A stretch of 64,000 bases of DNA from Gammaproteobacteria bacterium (GTDB lineage Bacteria; Pseudomonadota; Gammaproteobacteria; SZUA-229), in assembly GCA_029881795.1 (NCBI GenBank), contig JAOULX010000002.1:62001-126000 (forward strand), in the 5' to 3' direction. Made by a program: the position numbers and the translations under genes. Under the pieces are notes generated by a model. The model was not told the DNA's origin. It searched no databases and saw nothing but the letters and a program-made list of their open reading frames with translations. Shown here piece after piece: positions 5,135 through 37,592 of the stretch (positions are counted from its first letter, which is position 1; every line of letters begins with the position of its first letter).

Positions 5135-5670
5135 TCAGCTGTTTGGCTTTCATCGTTAGGGTGAATAGTGATTTTTACGCGCTCGTCCTGCGCGTTGTCG
5201 TCATTACCGGCAGTAATGACATCCTTGGCGGTATTGTATGTAATTTCCGCGCTCCTGAATACATTGTCTTTTTGCTGCAGTTCGGCATTTTCTTTCAGGA
5301 TCAGCAAGTCTTTGCCATTATAAAAAATCATTTCATTACCACTGGCTTTAATGGTTTCGTTTTTATCGTTAAGCTGGCTGAATGATGCAGGCTGTCCCTT
5401 GATGATGATTTTTGTGATCTCATCGGTTTTTGAAAAGATAGTGATTGATTCGCCGCTGATAATACGGCTGCCCTGAGTAATCGTTACCGTGCCGGAATAA
5501 ATGCTGGTACCTTGCTGTTCATCGATCACCAGTTTACCGGCATTGATTTGCATGGACTGATTATTGTCGGTATTCAGTGCTGCGACCAGTAACGGGGTGG
5601 CTATTGTGAGCAGAAGTAGCCCATGTGTTGTGCTCTTTAAAAGTCGTTTATGGCATTTTTTACTTAACAT
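5131..5670 (-). CDS. lptA: Periplasmic LPS bridge protein LptA
   Basis: The protein from this start is 179 aa: [12 protein letters not shown], then a hydrophobic stretch (about 16-31), consistent with a signal peptide, then the OstA-like beta-jellyroll repeats (for example [18 protein letters not shown]). LptA polymerises in the periplasm to carry LPS from LptC to LptD. An in-frame extension of 34 codons reaches 5772, but it would overlap lptC by more than 100 bases and put residues before the signal peptide, so 5670 is preferred; this still gives an 11-base overlap with lptC. Confidence 0.88.
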
Positions 5671-8748: not shown

Positions 8749-8852
8749 TAAGTTTCGTATTTAGTCAGACAGGATAAGGCGCCATCATACACAGATTTGG
8801 ACGCTATCCAAGACGGAACGTGTAAATATTTATAAACAGTGAATATCATCGT

Positions 8853-9533
8853 ATGATGACGGCCAATTATAATCACCGAGTGAAAGCATTGTTACGATCT
8901 GTGGGTTCCTGGGGCTGGCGACACCCCGAGTGGGAAAAAGACGTTTTTTATCCTGATGATTTGCCAGCCGACTGGCAGTTATCTTATTACGCGAATGAGT
9001 TTGATCTGGTTGTGGTGCCTGCGAGTTACTGGGGCGCAGATGGCTATACGGATGAAGACTGGCTGGACGATGTTGAAGAGGACTTTGTGTTTTATATCGA
9101 CTGGCCATTTTTACAATTAGCTGATCTGGCCGATTATCCGCACTGCGCTCAGGCCTGCCGCCAACTGGGCGGGCAGATGGCAGCCGTGCTGGTTAATAAT
9201 GACATCTGGCAGCAGCTCGATAAAGAACAGCGAGACTGCTTTGAGGCGGAAACTGCCGGTTTTGAGATTCTACAATATGGCAGTCAGCCGATAGCGGCTT
9301 ATCAGCAGCTGACAGATGCTCAGAACCCCGTTCTGGCACAGGATTTAGCGACAACAAAACTACTGTTAGTGCACAGTGAGCAGAATGAAAATTTGCGTGA
9401 TTTGAGTCAGCGTATCATGCCGTGGTTTCAGGCCAGCTCTTTTCAGCATGTGATACTGGCAGAGGGCGACAATATGGCACGTCTGAAAGAGCTACAGACT
9501 TTAACCACTTTACTGCCCGAGGCGATCGAGTAA
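8853..9533 (+). CDS. DUF72-like protein of unknown function
   Basis: A 226-aa soluble, acidic, Trp-rich protein. Its N-terminal half (GSWGWRHPEWEKDVFYPDDL, then YYANEFDLVVVPASYW) resembles the opening of DUF72/YecE TIM-barrel proteins (consensus-like GTSGWxYxxWxxxFYPxxL then YYAxxFxxVExxxxFY). The rest is divergent and shorter than typical members, with no recognised catalytic motif. Two ATGs in tandem (8853, 8856) are possible starts and neither has a strong ribosome binding site. It is divergent from yrbG across 104 bases and ends 138 bases before mlaF. Confidence 0.6.
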   Translation: MMTANYNHRVKALLRSVGSWGWRHPEWEKDVFYPDDLPADWQLSYYANEFDLVVVPASYWGADGYTDEDWLDDVEEDFVFYIDWPFLQLADLADYPHCAQACRQLGGQMAAVLVNNDIWQQLDKEQRDCFEAETAGFEILQYGSQPIAAYQQLTDAQNPVLAQDLATTKLLLVHSEQNENLRDLSQRIMPWFQASSFQHVILAEGDNMARLKELQTLTTLLPEAIE

Positions 9534-29613: not shown

Positions 29614-30528
29614 CTAGAGTTCGTACTCTCTGCCGAGAATGTTGTGGCTTTCCTGTAGAATGAAATCAAGAAATGTTTGTGCCACCAGTGAGAGTTTGCG
29701 GCCTTTTAAATGCACGGTATACCACCTTCGCTTCAGTGGAAAACCTTGTATATCGAGCACTGTGAGTTTGTTGACTTCCAGTTCCAGCTGTACGCTATGG
29801 AGTGATAAGGCGGATATCCCTAGCCCGGCCATTACTGCCTGTTTAAGGGCTTCGCTGCTACCGAGTTCCATATAGGGCTCGATATGCATGCCATGCTCTT
29901 CGAGTAATTTATCGAACACAAAGCGGGTACCTGAACCAATTTCTCGGTTTAAAAAGCGCTGATTTTGTAATTCTTCTATTTTGATATTTTTTTTGTTAGC
30001 CAGTGGGTGATTGGCAGGAGCAACAACTCCTATGATGTTATTTAGAAATGGGTAGGCTTCTAAGTGGTCGTCTTCCGGAACCTGGCCCATGATGACAAAG
30101 TCATCATCGTTATTCATCAGGCGGTCAAGCAGTCGTGCTCGGTTGGTAAATTTCAGTTTAGGCTCGACTTCTGGGTATTGCTGTAAAAATGCCCCCAGTA
30201 GATTGGGTAAAAAATATTTGGCGGTGGTCACGACGGAAACCTGCAGATTGCCTTTGACCGTACCTTTTAATACCTCGATTTCTATTTTTAGATCTTCAAC
30301 CCGGTTAAGGATATCCAGGCTGGCGGCGTACATTTCCTTGCCGGCAGCAGTGGAGAATGTTTTTTTGCCAACCTGCTCAAACAGGGGTAGTCCTGTTTGC
30401 TCTTCAAGTCGTTTAATCTGAATAGAAACAGCAGGTTGCGTCAGGCACAGCTCTTTGGCGGCGCGCGTGTAACTGCCCAGACGAGAGACTGCTTCAAATA
30501 GTTTAAGTTGTTGTAATGTAAGGTGCAT
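29614..30528 (-). CDS. cbbR: LysR-type regulator of the Calvin cycle, CbbR
   Basis: A 304-aa LysR protein: winged helix-turn-helix (MHLTLQQLKLFEAVSRLGSYTRAAKELCLTQPAVSIQIKRL, 1-45 or so), a linker helix and an effector domain. It is divergent from cbbL across 194 bases, the standard CbbR arrangement. CbbR proteins bind the intervening DNA at T-N11-A-type dyads and respond to metabolites such as RuBP, PEP or NADPH. A matching dyad is at 30567-30591. Confidence 0.92.
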   Translation of the reverse strand: MHLTLQQLKLFEAVSRLGSYTRAAKELCLTQPAVSIQIKRLEEQTGLPLFEQVGKKTFSTAAGKEMYAASLDILNRVEDLKIEIEVLKGTVKGNLQVSVVTTAKYFLPNLLGAFLQQYPEVEPKLKFTNRARLLDRLMNNDDDFVIMGQVPEDDHLEAYPFLNNIIGVVAPANHPLANKKNIKIEELQNQRFLNREIGSGTRFVFDKLLEEHGMHIEPYMELGSSEALKQAVMAGLGISALSLHSVQLELEVNKLTVLDIQGFPLKRRWYTVHLKGRKLSLVAQTFLDFILQESHNILGREYEL

Positions 30529-30722: not shown

Positions 30723-32141
30723 ATGGCTAAGACTTACAGCGCGGGTGTTAAAGAATACCGCGAAACGTACTGGATGCCTGAATACACTCCAAAAGAGACT
30801 GATATTCTGGCATGTTTTAAAATCACTCCACAAGAAGGCGTTCCTCGTGAAGAAGTAGCAGCTGCTGTTGCTGCAGAATCTTCAACAGGTACCTGGACTA
30901 CAGTATGGACTGACCTGTTAACTGATCTTGATTACTACAAAGGTCGTGCATACGCAATCGAAGATGTACCAGGTGATGACACTTGTTACTATGCGTTTGT
31001 TGCATACCCAATCGACTTATTTGAAGAAGGTTCAGTTGTAAACATCCTGACTTCTTTAGTGGGTAACGTATTCGGCTTTAAAGCACTGCGTGCACTTCGT
31101 TTAGAAGATATCCGTTTCCCGGTTGCTTATGTTATGACTTGTAATGGACCACCGCAAGGTATCCAGGTTGAGCGTGACTTATTGAACAAATACGGTCGTC
31201 CTATGTTGGGTTGTACTATCAAGCCTAAGCTTGGTCTTTCAGCTAAAAACTATGGTCGTGCATGTTACGAAGGTTTACGTGGCGGTCTTGACTTCACTAA
31301 AGATGACGAGAACGTTAACTCACAGCCATTCATGCGCTGGAGACATCGTTTTGATTTCGTAATGGAAGCTATCCATAAAGCAGAAGCGGAAACTGGTGAG
31401 CGTAAAGGTCACTACCTGAACGTTACTGCACCTACTTCTGACGAAATGATGAAACGTGCTGAGTACGCTAAAGAAATCGGCGCTCCTATCATCATGCATG
31501 ACTACTTAACTGGTGGTCTGTCAGCTAATACTCAGCTGGCTCAATGGTGTCAAGATAACGGTATGCTGTTACACATTCACCGTGCAATGCACGCTGTATT
31601 GGATCGTAACCCGCACCACGGTATCCACTTCCGCGTATTAACTAAAGTATTACGTCTGTCAGGTGGTGATCACCTTCACTCAGGTACTGTTGTTGGTAAA
31701 CTGGAAGGCGATCGTGACGCTACTCTGGGTTGGATCGACATCATGCGTGATTCATATATTAAAGAAGATCGTTCACGCGGTATCTTCTTCGACCAGGACT
31801 GGGGTTCAATGCCTGGTGTTATCCCGGTTGCTTCTGGTGGTATCCACGTATGGCACATGCCAGCATTAGTTAGCATCTTTGGTGATGACTCAGTACTGCA
31901 GTTCGGTGGTGGTACATTAGGTCACCCATGGGGCAACGCGGCTGGTGCTGCTGCTAACCGTGTTGCGGTTGAAGCTTGTGTTGAAGCACGTAACTCAGGT
32001 GTTGAGCTTGAGAAAGAAGGTAAGGACATCCTTACTAACGCTGCTAAGCATAGCCCAGAGCTTAAGATTGCAATGGAAACTTGGAAAGAGATCAAGTTCG
32101 AATTTGATACAGTTGACAAGATCGACGTTGCTCATAAGTAA
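30723..32141 (+). CDS. cbbL: RuBisCO large subunit, form IA
   Basis: A 472-aa form I large subunit. Active-site residues are intact: Lys167 (TIKPKLG), the carbamylated Lys193 in [11 protein letters not shown], His286 in HIHRAMH, and loop-6 Lys326 in [10 protein letters not shown]. Fixes CO2 onto ribulose-1,5-bisphosphate in the cytoplasm. With cbbQ and cbbO downstream and no carboxysome shell genes, this is the non-carboxysomal type often called IAq. A strong GAGGA ribosome site precedes the ATG, and codon use looks narrower than in neighbours (many GGT, CGT, AAC), as in highly expressed genes. Confidence 0.97.
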
Positions 32142-32152
32142 AAGAGTTGTCT

Positions 32153-32210
32153 AGCGCGTTCTGGTAGCGCTGTTGAAAGGATCGGTGATTGTAAAATTAC
32201 CTCCTTTTAC
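32153..32210 (+). promoter_or_regulatory. Two hairpins in the cbbL-cbbS spacer
   Basis: In the 148-base spacer, AGCGC/GCGCT (arms 32153-32157 and 32167-32171) and GTAAAA/TTTTAC (32191-32196 and 32205-32210, extendable by GAT/ATC) can fold. Neither has a T-tract, so they are more likely mRNA processing or stability elements setting the L:S ratio than terminators. Confidence 0.35.
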
Positions 32211-32289
32211 ATCGTGGCCAGATCGCACTGTAAACACTTTTATAAGCAGTATTAAATTTAATAGTTAAAACTAATTTGGAGTAAATCAC

Positions 32290-32649
32290 ATGAGTGATGT
32301 ACAAGATTACAATTCAAGCTTGAGCGATGCAGCTCAGAGCCGTAAATATGAAACTTTTTCATACCTGCCACCACTGAGCAAAGAGTCTACTCGCGCTCAG
32401 ATCCAGTTTATCGTTGATAAAGGCTGGAACCCAGGTATTGAGCACACAGAGCCAGAAAATGCGATCAGCAACTACTGGTACATGTGGAAACTGCCTATGT
32501 TTGGTGAAACTGACGTAGATGCAATCCTGGCTGAAATTGAAAACTGTCATAAAGCACACCCAAAGAACCATGTTCGTTTATTGGGCTTTGACAACTTTGC
32601 ACAGTCTGCCGGTGCTGCAATGGTTATCTACCGTGGTGTTTCTGTTTAA
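32290..32649 (+). CDS. cbbS: RuBisCO small subunit, form IA
   Basis: A 119-aa small subunit with the conserved [29 protein letters not shown] opening, [13 protein letters not shown], and [13 protein letters not shown]. Eight copies cap the L8S8 holoenzyme. A hydrophilic extension ([21 protein letters not shown]) precedes the core; whether this matches the extension reported for some non-carboxysomal small subunits should be confirmed by alignment. GGAG ribosome site; followed by a strong terminator. Confidence 0.96.
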
Positions 32650-32684: not shown

Positions 32685-32723
32685 GTCTCTGGGCGGATTT
32701 AGTTACTGTCCAGAGACTTTTTT
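32685..32723 (+). terminator. Intrinsic terminator after cbbS
   Basis: GTCTCTGG (32685-32692) / CCAGAGAC (32710-32717), a perfect 8-base stem, followed by TTTTTT. It would keep the abundant cbbLS transcript apart from the 103-aa gene, cbbQ and cbbO. Confidence 0.88.
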
Positions 32724-32732
32724 GCCTATAAT
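32703..32732 (+). promoter_or_regulatory. Possible promoter for the 103-aa gene-cbbQ-cbbO unit
   Basis: A perfect -10 hexamer TATAAT (32727-32732) lies right behind the cbbS terminator, 33 bases before the next start codon. The best -35 at 18-base spacing is only TTACTG (3 of 6), so it may be weak or activator-dependent. Confidence 0.4.
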
Positions 32733-32765
32733 CCAAGCTTTATTTACTAATTCAAAGAGTTTTAT

Positions 32766-33077
32766 ATGGCGCGTCCCGATAAGTATGTTGGTCTGAACAA
32801 CGAAGTAAATGGTGGTATGACCACGATTGGTAAAATTATTCGAGATGCCAGGGTATTTGGATTAATTGGAGAGACAGAAACCTGTGAAGGCTGGAACTTC
32901 GCTGGTGTTGATGGCTTGCTGGATAAGGTAAACAAAGAGTGGGATAAATATGGTTGTCTGGTGAGTAATTTGCCACCAGAGCTGTTTGAGAAACACCAGA
33001 GTATTCATGGTCAGGCAATCGAAGATGCCAAAGCAGCTGGCTGGTGTGGCGAAGCAGAAACCGATGATGAAAAGTAG
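32766..33077 (+). CDS. Small protein of unknown function inside the cbb cluster
   Basis: A 103-aa soluble protein, no signal peptide or membrane segment. It starts MARPDKYVGLNNEVNGGMTT, is rich in Trp, Gly and acidic residues, and has three cysteines (in ETCEGWNFAG, KYGCLVS and GWCGEAE); the first and third are in similar 'E-x-C-x-G-W / G-W-C-G-E' contexts. I recognise no family. AAAGAG ribosome site. Lies between the cbbS terminator and cbbQ, same strand, with no terminator before cbbQ, so it is probably co-expressed with the CbbQO activase. A role in RuBisCO assembly or repair is a guess from position. Confidence 0.75.
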   Translation: MARPDKYVGLNNEVNGGMTTIGKIIRDARVFGLIGETETCEGWNFAGVDGLLDKVNKEWDKYGCLVSNLPPELFEKHQSIHGQAIEDAKAAGWCGEAETDDEK

Positions 33078-33160: not shown

Positions 33161-33982
33161 ATGTCCGTTACTGATAACGTTGTAGATGCTGAGCAGTATA
33201 AAATAAAAGACGAGCCTTATTACGAGCCAGTCGGTTCAGAAATTACTCTGTATGAATCTGCCTATGAAGTTCGTATGCCGATGATGATTAAAGGACCAAC
33301 AGGTTGCGGTAAATCGCGTTTTGTTGAGCACATGGCCTGGCGACTGGGCAAGCCTTTGATTACGGTTGCCTGTAATGAAGATATGACGGCTTCTGATCTT
33401 GTTGGTCGTTTCCTGCTGGACAAAGATGGCACCAAATGGCAAGACGGTCCTCTGACTACTGCAGCGCGTATGGGTGCGATCTGCTATCTTGATGAAATTG
33501 TTGAGGCTCGACAGGATACAACGGTTGTCATTCACCCGCTAACCGATCACCGTCGTCAGCTACCGCTAGATAAAAAAGGTGAGCTGATCGAAGCGCACCC
33601 TGATTTTCAGTTGGTTATTTCATACAATCCGGGTTACCAGAGTTTAATGAAAGACTTGAAGCAATCAACTAAGCAGCGTTTCGGTGCTATGGATTTTGAT
33701 TATCCGGTTGAAGCGACTGAAATCGAGATTGTTTCAAAAGAATCTGGTGTTGATAAAGCGACGGCAGAAAAATTAGTGCACATTGCACAGCGTGCCCGTA
33801 ACCTTAAAGGCCATGGTCTGGATGAGGGTATCTCGACACGTTTATTGGTTTACTCAGGACAGTTAATTGCTAAAGGCGTATCACCGTTGGATGCCTGCAC
33901 TATGACAATGGTTACACCATTAACTGATGATCCTGATATGCGCGATACGTTAAACGCAGCAGTTGAAACATTTTTTGGCTAA
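33161..33982 (+). CDS. cbbQ: RuBisCO activase AAA+ subunit CbbQ
   Basis: A 273-aa MoxR-type AAA+ protein. Walker A GPTGCGKS at residues 45-52, Walker B ICYLDE at 107-112, and the sensor/insert region VISYNPGYQSLMKDLKQSTKQRF. With CbbO it forms a ring-shaped motor that strips inhibitory sugar phosphates from form I RuBisCO. Good ribosome site (GAGAG). Separated from cbbO by 83 bases containing a hairpin. Confidence 0.95.
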   Translation: MSVTDNVVDAEQYKIKDEPYYEPVGSEITLYESAYEVRMPMMIKGPTGCGKSRFVEHMAWRLGKPLITVACNEDMTASDLVGRFLLDKDGTKWQDGPLTTAARMGAICYLDEIVEARQDTTVVIHPLTDHRRQLPLDKKGELIEAHPDFQLVISYNPGYQSLMKDLKQSTKQRFGAMDFDYPVEATEIEIVSKESGVDKATAEKLVHIAQRARNLKGHGLDEGISTRLLVYSGQLIAKGVSPLDACTMTMVTPLTDDPDMRDTLNAAVETFFG

Positions 33983-34065: not shown

Positions 34066-36414
34066 ATGTCGATGAAGCTAGAAGATTATCAAGAAATTCT
34101 CCATGATGTAGCACCCGAAATTCGTGATGTGATGGAATCTACGTTCCAGGAAGCCTCACGTGTTATGTCGCCGAGTGGCCTGCAAGAATATATGGATGGT
34201 GCTAAAAGTCTATCCAATCTGGGGCGTGGTTCTGGTGTTGTTATTTCTTATTTGCAGGAAATGCCGCTGGTAGCAAAAGAGTGTGGTGAAGATGTTATAG
34301 GTGATTGTCTGACAGCGGCAATGAAGCTGTCTTCAATGACCTCTGGTGAAGTGGTGGCGCTTTTATTTGCGAGTATGCCGTCTGCGGCACGCAATCTGGG
34401 CGATGCAGAGTTGTTCCGTGGTTATCTCACATTAATTCATCAGCTGGCTTCAACTGCATCACGTGGTGTACGTCCCCTGCTTAATCATATTGATGAGCTA
34501 CTGAGTAAATTAACTCTTAGTGGTTTGCGTCGCTGGGCTCAGTTTGGTGCTCAGGCTTACCGCCGTGATTATAATAATCTGACGGCATATTTTAATCTTG
34601 AGTCAGCCGACAGTCGTGCCGTTTTACAGAAAGAGCGCCGTGGTATTTTATTTATTAAAACCCAGCGTAAATTAAATTTCTATTTACGTGCCCTATGGGG
34701 TCGTGATTTCTTTTTGCGCCCGACCGGTGCCGACTTTGCAGATTTTCGTCCTTTCATAGAGCACCGAATTTTGCACTTGCCAGATGCACTTGATGATTAT
34801 GGTGATATCGCTGGGCTGGAAGTTTATCGTGCAACAGCAGCGCATATGGCTGCGCACATGGCATATTCAACAGCGCCGATATCTGCAGAGGGTTTAAGTC
34901 CTGCGCAAATGTTCTTTATCGGTTTGATTGAAGATGCGCGTATTGAATATAAAGCAGTCAAAGACTTTCCTGGTTTAAGGAAACTCTGGCATTCGCTGAT
35001 GGATGTGCCTCATGACGAAGATCAGGTGATTGAGCATCCAACAATGCCGATACTGGAGCATTTTGCTGTGATGTTGCTGGATGCAAAGATATCATCGGAG
35101 GATAAAGAGCTTAATGAGCTGGCGAAGAAATTCCACGATGGCATAGAAGAAAATCAGGATAATAATAATTTCTGCTGGCATCTGGGTCTAGATGTTTTCA
35201 ACCTGTTTTCTTCGCGTAAAGAAGTGCCGAGCTTGCGTATTCTGGAGCGCATTGATATTCCTTACCGTGATGATAATCGTTATGTCTGGGAGTTTGAAGA
35301 ATTCGATATGAATGCCGAATTCGAATATGTTCCAGCCAGTCAGCGCCAGGTTCGCAGACAGGTCAGTGTGATTGAAATGGCCAATGAAGTGGACTGCGAA
35401 TTAGCCGGTGATGATGCTCAGGAAATCTGGACCTGTTCAACCAATATGCGTCCCTACGAAGATGACTTAACGGATGAGCAAGTCAGCTTTAATGATATGT
35501 GGGGTAAAGAGCCGGTATCGGATCCGTTCCATTATCAGGAATGGGATTATCAGATACAGTTACATCGTCCTGATTGGGCTACGGTGTATGAGCGTCGTCA
35601 GCCGCGAGGCCATGTTGAAGATATTCAGGCGATTATTGACGAGTACAAACCGGTTGCGCATCGTATTAAACAAATCATCGACTTGTTAACACCAGAAGGT
35701 GTGCAGCGTGTGCGTAATATGGAAGACGGTGATGAGGTCGATATTAATGCAGCCATCGACGCGATGATTGCCATCCGTATGGGTGAGCAACCAAATACCC
35801 GTATCACCATGCGTAATGTATTAAAAAATCGTGACCTGTCGGTTGTGGTTCTGCTTGATTTGTCGGAATCAACGAATGAGCCTATGAACGGTTCTGAAAA
35901 AACGGTCTTGCAGTTAACCCGCGAAGCGGCGACTCTGGTTGCCACCGCGATTGAAGGGATTGGTGATCCGTTTGCATTACATGGTTTTGCATCGGATGGC
36001 CGTCACGATGTTCAGTATTACCGCTTTAAAGATTTTAATCAGCGCTTTGATGATGAATCAAAATCACGTCTGGCAGGTATGAAAGGCGGCTTATCAACGC
36101 GCATGGGTGCTGCATTACGCCATGCCGGTCAGCACTTATTAAAACAGCAGGAAAAACGTAAACTGGTTTTGTTGGTAACTGATGGTGAGCCTGCTGATAT
36201 TGATGAGCGCGATCCGCAGCATTTACGACATGATGCCAAAAAAGCAGTTGAAGAACTTTATAGTACCGGTGTACTAACCTATTGTCTGACGCTTGATCCG
36301 AATGCAGATGATTATGTGAAACGCATTTTTGGTGCTAATAACTATACCGTTATTGATCATGTTGATAAATTACCGGAACAGCTGCCGACATTATTTGCGA
36401 GTTTAACGGCCTGA
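34066..36414 (+). CDS. cbbO: RuBisCO activase adaptor CbbO
   Basis: A 782-aa protein whose C-terminal ~190 residues are a von Willebrand A domain. The MIDAS is intact: DLSES (Asp598, Ser600, Ser602) and TDGEP with Asp706; LSTR supplies the middle threonine. The N-terminal ~570 residues hold helical CbbQ-binding regions and a large acidic middle part. CbbO links the CbbQ hexamer to RuBisCO through the VWA domain. No strong ribosome site, which together with the preceding hairpin suggests low expression relative to cbbQ. Confidence 0.94.
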   Translation: MSMKLEDYQEILHDVAPEIRDVMESTFQEASRVMSPSGLQEYMDGAKSLSNLGRGSGVVISYLQEMPLVAKECGEDVIGDCLTAAMKLSSMTSGEVVALLFASMPSAARNLGDAELFRGYLTLIHQLASTASRGVRPLLNHIDELLSKLTLSGLRRWAQFGAQAYRRDYNNLTAYFNLESADSRAVLQKERRGILFIKTQRKLNFYLRALWGRDFFLRPTGADFADFRPFIEHRILHLPDALDDYGDIAGLEVYRATAAHMAAHMAYSTAPISAEGLSPAQMFFIGLIEDARIEYKAVKDFPGLRKLWHSLMDVPHDEDQVIEHPTMPILEHFAVMLLDAKISSEDKELNELAKKFHDGIEENQDNNNFCWHLGLDVFNLFSSRKEVPSLRILERIDIPYRDDNRYVWEFEEFDMNAEFEYVPASQRQVRRQVSVIEMANEVDCELAGDDAQEIWTCSTNMRPYEDDLTDEQVSFNDMWGKEPVSDPFHYQEWDYQIQLHRPDWATVYERRQPRGHVEDIQAIIDEYKPVAHRIKQIIDLLTPEGVQRVRNMEDGDEVDINAAIDAMIAIRMGEQPNTRITMRNVLKNRDLSVVVLLDLSESTNEPMNGSEKTVLQLTREAATLVATAIEGIGDPFALHGFASDGRHDVQYYRFKDFNQRFDDESKSRLAGMKGGLSTRMGAALRHAGQHLLKQQEKRKLVLLVTDGEPADIDERDPQHLRHDAKKAVEELYSTGVLTYCLTLDPNADDYVKRIFGANNYTVIDHVDKLPEQLPTLFASLTA

Positions 36415-36436: not shown

Positions 36437-37328
36437 ATGCCACTGGTTAATATGCTCCGCCATGCCTATGATAATAACTACCCTGTGGGTGCGTTTGATT
36501 AAGTCAGCTTAGATTTTCTGGAAGCGGTTTTGGGGCTGCTGAAAGTTGTCACTCTGCGGTTATCCTGAGTATCGATGAACCGCATTTCTCCTATTATGAT
36601 TATGAATTGTTACTGCCTGCGGTTGAAGCGGCCGCAAAACGTGCAAGCGTGCCGGTAGCGATTTAGCTTGATCACGGTAGCAGTATCGAGACGGCTATTA
36701 AAGCCACTAATCTGGGCTGTAATGTCGTCATGCTGGATGCAACAAGCCAGGATCTTTCTGAAAATATTAAGCAGTCCCGGGCCGTGGTTGAGATGGCTCA
36801 TAAATGTGGCGTAACAGTGGTGGGTGAGCTGGGCTATGTTGCTGGAAAAGTCGGTGAAGGTGCTGAACCGCATCCGGGTGAGGCTGCTATTACCAATCCA
36901 TCTGAAGCCAGAGCGTATGTAGAACGAACAGGTGTGGATGTTTTAGCTGTGTCGATTGGTGCGGTACAGGGGCGCATGGATGGTCGTGCAAAGCTGGACT
37001 ATAGCCGTCTCAAACAAATTAATCAGGCTGTCAGTATTCCACTGGCAATTCATGGTGGCAGTGGATTAAATGAAGATTAATTTCATAAATTAACCGTTAA
37101 CGGCGTTGCAAAAATAGATTATTACACCGCGCTTTCGGATATTGCTGCCAAGGCAATGAGAAAACGCAGTAATGAAAATCCAGCTGCAGCTTTACCGATC
37201 TTAAAAAAGATGTAAAACAGGCTGTCTCTGCAGAAGTGCAGCGCTGCCTGCGTCAGTGGGGTAGTGCTGCTGAAGTATTGGCACAGTGTGAGCCCTGGTT
37301 GTCTGTCGAGACATCTGATTATTCATAA
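36437..37328 (+). pseudogene. Degenerate class II fructose-bisphosphate aldolase
   Basis: Pieces in three frames together spell a class II (ketose-bisphosphate) aldolase: MPLVNMLRHAYDNNYPVGAFD, then EPHFSYYDYELLLPAVEAAA, LDHGSSIETAIKA, GELGYVAGKVGEG, ERTGVDVLAVSIG, LAIHGGSGLNED, NGVAKIDYYTALSD. Lesions: stop at 36500-36502, frameshift near 36533, stop at 36664-36666 (right before the LDHG zinc motif), stop at 37078-37080, frameshift near 37195. The Calvin-cycle aldolase/SBPase-providing enzyme of this cbb cluster has therefore been lost here and must be encoded elsewhere. Residues around the breaks are well preserved, so the decay looks recent. Confidence 0.9.
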
Positions 37329-37361
37329 TGTCGATATAATCAGCGCTCAGTCAGTAGTTTA

Positions 37362-37592
37362 ATGGCGGAAGGAAAAGAATTGTTATTGCAGGTGTCCGGT
37401 GTGCGTGAGGTTTTCACCAGTGAAGCTGTTGAGGAAAACAGCAAGTGCCGTTTTTGCTGGTCCGTCAGCTTTACTCACAAAGCAGCGCTAGAAAGTTTTC
37501 GGGCTGATAATAACTTCGATACATTTTTAAAGAAACAATTTAAACCTAATGCCAGTGATTTTATCAGCATTGATTATCTGGAAAGCGCTTAA
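37362..37592 (+). CDS. Small Dabb-like protein, possibly N-terminally truncated
   Basis: A 76-aa reading frame. The pattern LLQVSGVREVFTSEAV, then CWSVSFTHKAALESFRADNNFDTFLKKQFKPNASDFISIDYLE, resembles the second half of a stress-responsive A/B barrel (Dabb) domain, where a hydrophobic strand ends in 'xDY'. The typical first beta strand (HxVLFKF) is absent, and the region directly upstream is the decayed aldolase gene, so it may be a fragment. It ends overlapping the convergent hypothetical gene by 4 bases. Confidence 0.45.
   Translation: MAEGKELLLQVSGVREVFTSEAVEENSKCRFCWSVSFTHKAALESFRADNNFDTFLKKQFKPNASDFISIDYLESA

Follow-up and report, generated by a model that had tools for sequence, protein, structure and literature searches.

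The question that this locus raises is whether a small gene of uncharacterised product, set between the structural genes of a form I RuBisCO and the genes of its activase, encodes a protein that serves the same enzyme. In the window (the whole 64,000-nucleotide stretch of gammaproteobacterial DNA analysed here), the gene order is lysR (minus strand), cbbL, cbbS, the 103-aa protein gene that we call X, cbbQ and cbbO. The LysR-family regulator gene (29614-30528, minus strand; Pfam LysR_substrate and HTH_1) is divergent from cbbL and holds the same place in many related loci. The large subunit gene cbbL (30723-32141, plus strand; Pfam RuBisCO_large and translation) encodes a form I protein ending in KIDVAHK, and cbbS (32290-32649, plus strand), recognised by its open reading frame and translation and homologous in related loci, encodes the small subunit, the only RbcS that PF00101 finds in this genome. 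On the far side of X lie cbbQ (33161-33982, plus strand; Pfam AAA_5 and CbbQ_C), encoding the MoxR-type AAA+ ATPase of the activase, and cbbO (34066-36414, plus strand; Pfam VWA), encoding its VWA-domain adaptor. Downstream of cbbO, at about 36438-37400 (plus strand), is a sequence that reads as a class II fructose-bisphosphate aldolase-like gene broken by frame changes and in-frame stops. The cbbL-cbbS gap (32142-32289, plus strand) is predicted to fold strongly (-42.1 kcal/mol, z -4.1), and neither a terminator search nor Rfam gave a match there.

The initial annotation described X as an intact 312-base gene with its own ribosome site, and both features are borne out. The open reading frame (32766-33077, plus strand) runs from ATG to TAG and is present in a single copy in the genome, and a Shine-Dalgarno-like AAAGAG (32754-32759, plus strand) lies 6 nt upstream of the ATG; some near relatives have AAAGAG or a similar GAG at equal spacing from the start. 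Comparison with six relatives gave dN/dS values of 0.04-0.11, which are rough since dS is high, and the median over 63 pairs with moderate synonymous difference was 0.17. Third codon positions hold 199 of the 272 differences between X and five relatives. X is, therefore, a real protein gene under purifying selection, far beyond a chance open reading frame. Two copies elsewhere look like pseudogenes (G045:C10:32864-33151, with five in-frame stops, and G203:C52:42780-43070, with one).

A stem search located an intrinsic terminator, a hairpin followed by six T, between cbbS and X (32685-32723, plus strand), within a 66-nt stretch of -26.6 kcal/mol (z -4.7); the stock terminator scan missed it because that scan allows loops of 3-8 only. 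X thus lies between a cbbS terminator and cbbQ, as first described. The layout recurs: among 90 loci with the order cbbS-X-cbbQ, a hairpin with a T run occupies the cbbS-X gap in 62 (0.5 expected from mononucleotide shuffles), whereas the search detected none in the X-cbbQ gap of any of the 90, the window included, in agreement with the earlier statement that none follows X. The recurring form consists of AAGCCCCTG, a stretch of ~16 nt, CAGGGGCTT and then the T run, and a pattern of this type was matched in 45 of 91 cbbS-X gaps. Median gaps are 99.5 nt for cbbS-X and 51 nt for X-cbbQ in the 90 loci. Since the terminator recurs in the first gap and is absent from the second, X is placed as the first gene of the activase unit, and from this shared operon place it follows that X would be made together with the repair machinery and presumably in smaller amounts than RuBisCO. 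The TATAAT that had been pointed out before X is indeed present as a possible -10 element (32727-32732, plus strand), but no full promoter passes a promoter scan of this gap and the hexamer occurs in only 11 of 91 cbbS-X gaps. An Rfam search found no RNA element match.

The protein, which has a calculated pI of 4.6, matches no family in Pfam (E 1), NCBIfam or PHROGs, consistent with the initial report of no known domain, and searches with 64 diverse members of the family returned nothing beyond weak, scattered hits. Positions with at least 95% conservation among 179 members are Y7, G9, G17, M18, T19, G22, D27, A28, F31, E36, C40, W43, W59, L69, P70, I80, A88, G92 and W93, with C40 in 176 and W43 in all 179. 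Two recurring cysteine motifs, CEGW and GWCG, had been singled out; both are present and CEGW is a family motif, but the cysteine of GWCG (residue 94) is found in only 16 of 92 near relatives. Position 64 is cysteine throughout the cbbS-X-cbbQ group (96 of 96) but in few members elsewhere, where it varies. The hint given by the cysteines is thus a weak one, C40 being general and the others not. We considered a metal site formed by C40, C64, H77 and H81 and rejected it as a general mechanism because C64, H77 and H81 vary across the family.

AlphaFold models predict three long helices (about 20-30, 45-60 and 71-90); the model built from 23 near rows is mostly ordered (pLDDT 88, pTM 0.78), and that built from 64 diverse rows has the same helices (pLDDT 80, pTM 0.66). 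Foldseek found nothing in the PDB at E 0.001 or better for either model and no match among viral models for the first, and the best VIA-align Z was 2.3 for both; this fold search is weak and does not show that the fold of X is new. The best PDB profile hit, chain H12 of 8fjg (E 4e-4 and 7e-4), was dismissed as a helix-rich match whose best stretch had an i-E of 0.72, and a match to GpsB (E 0.024-0.077) was dismissed likewise.

A scan of species genomes yielded 89 relatives, of which 80 were kept. X is present in 44 of 96 kin genomes and, by a 24-row profile, in 113 of 369 genomes drawn evenly from the class of the window (one of these, G237, is doubtful at E 5e-4). A phylum-wide set contained it in 12 of 398 genomes, three in the same class and nine in one family of another class, in which X occurs in 9 of 78 genomes. 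No relative was found in phages or viral contigs, and a phage origin was rejected on that basis; the one plasmid copy belongs to the alphaproteobacterium Nitrobacter hamburgensis. All members are of 85-130 aa, with no fusion seen, although starts were chosen near the expected one, so that true longer starts would be missed.

We surveyed the place of 182 members in 181 loci; 80 named loci among these were chosen as best hits to X and bias the survey toward near relatives. The strict one-strand order cbbS-X-cbbQ accounts for 90 of the 182, X directly after cbbO for 11 and X between cbbQ and cbbO for 2. Cocleimonas flava (L042), which is in culture, has the order cbbL-cbbS-X-cbbQ-cbbO. When contig-edge cases are labelled as well, 99 members are cbbS-X-cbbQ, 11 follow cbbO, 2 lie between cbbQ and cbbO, 6 are otherwise near a cbb gene, 1 is linked to dab genes and 63 stand alone, one of these being labelled as next to an aldolase gene. 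For the even draw from the class (116 copies inspected out of 119 matches listed) the corresponding counts are 32 cbbS-X-cbbQ, 17 otherwise up to 600 bp from a cbb gene and 67 stand-alone, with no cbb gene inside that distance by the criteria applied, and 7 of the 8 inspected copies (9 found) in the second class are cbbS-X-cbbQ, the eighth following cbbO. Homologues lying mostly away from cbb genes had been named at the outset as evidence against a RuBisCO link, and the result is mixed: 67 of 116 copies do stand alone, while nearly all genomes with X have RuBisCO.

In a quick tree of 147 members and 103 columns, in which many forks are unresolved, nearly all cbbS-X-cbbQ members fall in one part, a second part collects 8 of the 11 copies that follow cbbO, and a third part mixes stand-alone copies, those between cbbQ and cbbO, three after-cbbO copies and the dab-linked one. 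The after-cbbO label requires at least two changes counted by starred branches and nine on the tree as drawn; adjacency to activase genes was therefore gained or retained in at least two branches.

Individual loci show further arrangements. One cluster (G087, L162) has two divergent X genes (5231-5542 and 8834-9145), one after cbbS and one after cbbO, and another locus (L060) retains X-cbbQ at a place where cbbLS are absent. A class II aldolase-like gene adjoins X in 2 of the 63 stand-alone loci (L104 and L204), and SulP-like transporter genes lie near X in L028, L153, L165 and L197 (gene names by reading in both cases). A neighbour common to the stand-alone copies was sought and rejected: no neighbour family occurs in more than five loci, and the scattered neighbours are common only within small locus groups. 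The N. hamburgensis plasmid copy adjoins dabB-like and DUF2309 genes at the edge of a carbon-fixation island that holds two dab-like modules, lysR, cbbLS and carboxysome genes, together with a CbbQ-family gene and a norD-like gene. The modules on this plasmid (plasmid 1, L254; 8499-14385 and 15418-21304) are near-identical and in tandem beside lysR-cbbLS and the carboxysome genes; each comprises a proton-transporter subunit, a hypothetical protein, DUF2309 and P-II, and two protein accessions are identical in both.

The profile co-occurrence count that had been proposed as a check was carried out on the 369 genomes, 144 of which have RbcS (PF00101). X and RbcS occur together in 104, X alone in 9, RbcS alone in 40 and neither in 216 (odds ratio 62, uncorrected for relatedness); at family level, X is found in 62 families, RbcS in 76 and both in 60. 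X thus follows RuBisCO (104 of 113 genomes with X), though 40 of the 144 RbcS genomes are without it, and it is encoded with RuBisCO genes (cbbS-X-cbbQ in 90 of 182), though the 67 class-draw copies stand alone. Among the nine genomes with X alone, four, one of them the doubtful G237, gave a match to the RuBisCO large subunit and five did not; the latter are rated 72-88% complete (G086, G101 and G336), 93% (G351) and 100% (G410). G410 has two X genes, one of which (L164, 7550-8287) lies behind a broken cbbO remnant.

The tie to the activase was assessed with a form-I-like CbbO, defined as E 1e-100 or better by a cut set on reading the tables. It is present in 85 of the 104 genomes with X and RbcS (26 of 31 plus 59 of 73) versus 18 of the 40 RbcS genomes without X (p 3e-5), leaving 19 of 104 with X and no such CbbO. 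CbbL was scored in these 19 and in the 40 X-less genomes. All 19 have a CbbL 77-81% identical to that of the window, with 18 of the best matches ending at residue 469 or 470 of 472 and one at 472; PMC8718961 describes a shorter tail for those form IA enzymes of carboxysomes that are encoded in clusters without cbbQ and cbbO. Of the 40, 29 have a form IA-like CbbL (77-90%), 10 have only a CbbL of 54-58% and one has no match, so X is dispensable to form IA. These data show that X tracks RuBisCO (form IA where tested) more closely than CbbQO. The suggestion that X is a third component linked to RuBisCO, first made by position, has gained from the co-occurrence, the varied cbb adjacency, the recurrent layout and the plasmid island copy, and has lost from the many stand-alone copies.

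A literature search, with most subscription papers outside its reach, found no study of X. The gene has probably been seen before as the 'conserved hypothetical protein' of the rbcL-rbcS-hyp-cbbQ cluster of Ca. Thiobarba (Campylobacterota), which shares the place of X between the small subunit gene and cbbQ, in a cluster of gammaproteobacterial origin; the accessible text of PMC6908604 assigns it no function, groups the Ca. Thiobarba RuBisCO genes with those of gammaproteobacterial sulfur oxidisers and notes a similar cluster in a free-living bin. In Methylococcus capsulatus, where cbbS is MCA2744 (PMC8388818, in part), MCA2745 falls by number between it and cbbQ, MCA2746. PMC5506194 takes the sequence between cbbS and cbbQ in its fragment to be non-coding, and PMC3772326 describes Noc0330 of Nitrosococcus oceani, a neighbour of a gene named CbbX, as 'associated with RuBisCO operon'. 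PMC7895386 ranks those Pfam and EC terms that go with the Calvin cycle, a ranking in which X, having no Pfam model, could not appear. Acidithiobacillus ferrooxidans RuBisCO and CbbQO made in E. coli worked in vitro, with no third protein described in the available parts of PMC4660213 and PMC8718961 or named in that of PMC5437159, which also describes CbbQO. PMC4660213 notes conflicting outcomes when RuBisCO was co-expressed with CbbQ and CbbO, and the cbb2 operon of A. ferrooxidans is listed as cbbL2, S2, Q2 and O2, without X, in the accessible part of PMC2942843.

The reading that we place first, tentatively, is that green-type form IA RuBisCO has in X an accessory protein dedicated to it, in many cases expressed together with the activase. 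We rank it above the others because the presence of X goes with RuBisCO more tightly than with CbbO. X would be made at activase-like, sub-RuBisCO levels and may fold into a compact helical unit on which the invariant Y7, G9, D27, F31, E36, C40-x-x-W43, W59, L69-P70 and G92-W93 form a patch. This patch could bind the large or small subunit of RuBisCO, or the enzyme while it is being assembled or when it is inhibited, and X might thereby support assembly, stability or inhibitor release, alongside CbbQO where present. Consistent with such a role are the presence of RbcS in 104 of 113 X genomes and 60 of 62 families, cbb adjacency on several branches, form IA CbbL in 19 of 19 CbbO-less X genomes, the terminator layout, purifying selection, the Nitrobacter copy by dab, cbbLS, carboxysome and cbbQ genes, the second class with 7 of 8 copies in cbbS-X-cbbQ order, and the Ca. 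Thiobarba gene at the place of X (PMC6908604, in part). Against it stand the 29 of 40 X-less RbcS genomes with form IA-like CbbL, the 67 of 116 copies found alone, G410 without RuBisCO, the A. ferrooxidans RuBisCO and CbbQO that work with no third protein described in what is available of PMC4660213 and PMC8718961, and the cbb2 operon as listed in that of PMC2942843. Raf1, RbcX and acRaf are likewise small proteins tied to RuBisCO genes. X differs from them in having no Pfam match at E 1, nor one in the 64 members, and its models gave no Foldseek match at E 0.001 and a best VIA-align Z of 2.3 in a fold search that is weak. All three, known as RuBisCO assembly factors, are named in PMC12918739.

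Less probably, X belongs to the CbbQO activase as its third component or acts as its regulator; it would then bind CbbO or CbbQ and adjust how these are recruited to inhibited RuBisCO or released from it. X shares with CbbQ and CbbO the downstream transcription unit and much the same genomes, takes places after cbbO or between the two genes in other clades, is accompanied by a higher frequency of CbbO (85 of 104 versus 18 of 40, p 3e-5), and persists beside a cbbO remnant in G410 and as X-cbbQ without cbbLS in L060. It differs from both in lacking an AAA+ or VWA domain (Pfam, E 1), and in 19 of 104 RbcS genomes it persists without a form-I-like CbbO rather than keeping its constant company; the A. 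ferrooxidans CbbQO, moreover, worked in vitro in assays whose description does not include X (PMC4660213 and PMC8718961, in part).

Other readings detach X from RuBisCO itself. It is unlikely that X regulates the Calvin cycle in the manner of CP12, without touching RuBisCO, by sensing redox state (through C40) or a metabolite and binding a different enzyme of the cycle. CP12 is a small acidic Calvin-cycle protein with conserved cysteine pairs, and X, small and with a pI of 4.6, resembles it to that extent; C40 in 176 of 179 members, the commonness of stand-alone copies and the aldolase gene adjoining X in L104 and L204 fit such a role. In contrast to the cysteine pairs of CP12, X has one general cysteine, C64 being found mainly in a single group. 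The window protein matches neither CP12 nor any other Pfam family at E 1, the 64 members gave no match to the CP12 profile, the model of X is mostly ordered (pLDDT 88), and aldolase neighbours amount to only 2 of 63 stand-alone loci. More improbable still is that autotrophs use X for something else, for example to take up inorganic carbon or to sense energy, its company with RuBisCO genes in some lineages being incidental. The 67 of 116 copies that stand alone, the dabB-like and DUF2309 neighbours in Nitrobacter, the SulP-like genes near four copies and the two X copies of the RuBisCO-less G410 point that way, whereas the strong co-occurrence with RbcS, the recurrence of cbb adjacency on separate branches and the restriction of common stand-alone neighbours to small locus groups argue otherwise.

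Taken with the accessory-protein reading, and proposed with somewhat more reserve, X may represent a new family of proteins that chaperone or regulate form IA RuBisCO, which would then have a third set of helpers in addition to the activase CbbQO and the carboxysomal factors. This family would be unrelated in sequence to known families, kept with or without CbbQO, moved between classes with the operon and omitted from heterologous work as 'hypothetical'. The X genes form a family that has been overlooked, is under constraint and is strongly tied to form IA RuBisCO at the genome level. Many sulfur-oxidising and symbiotic bacteria fix CO2 with form IA RuBisCOs and, if the proposed role is true, biochemical and engineering work moving cbbLS with cbbQO has omitted one component.
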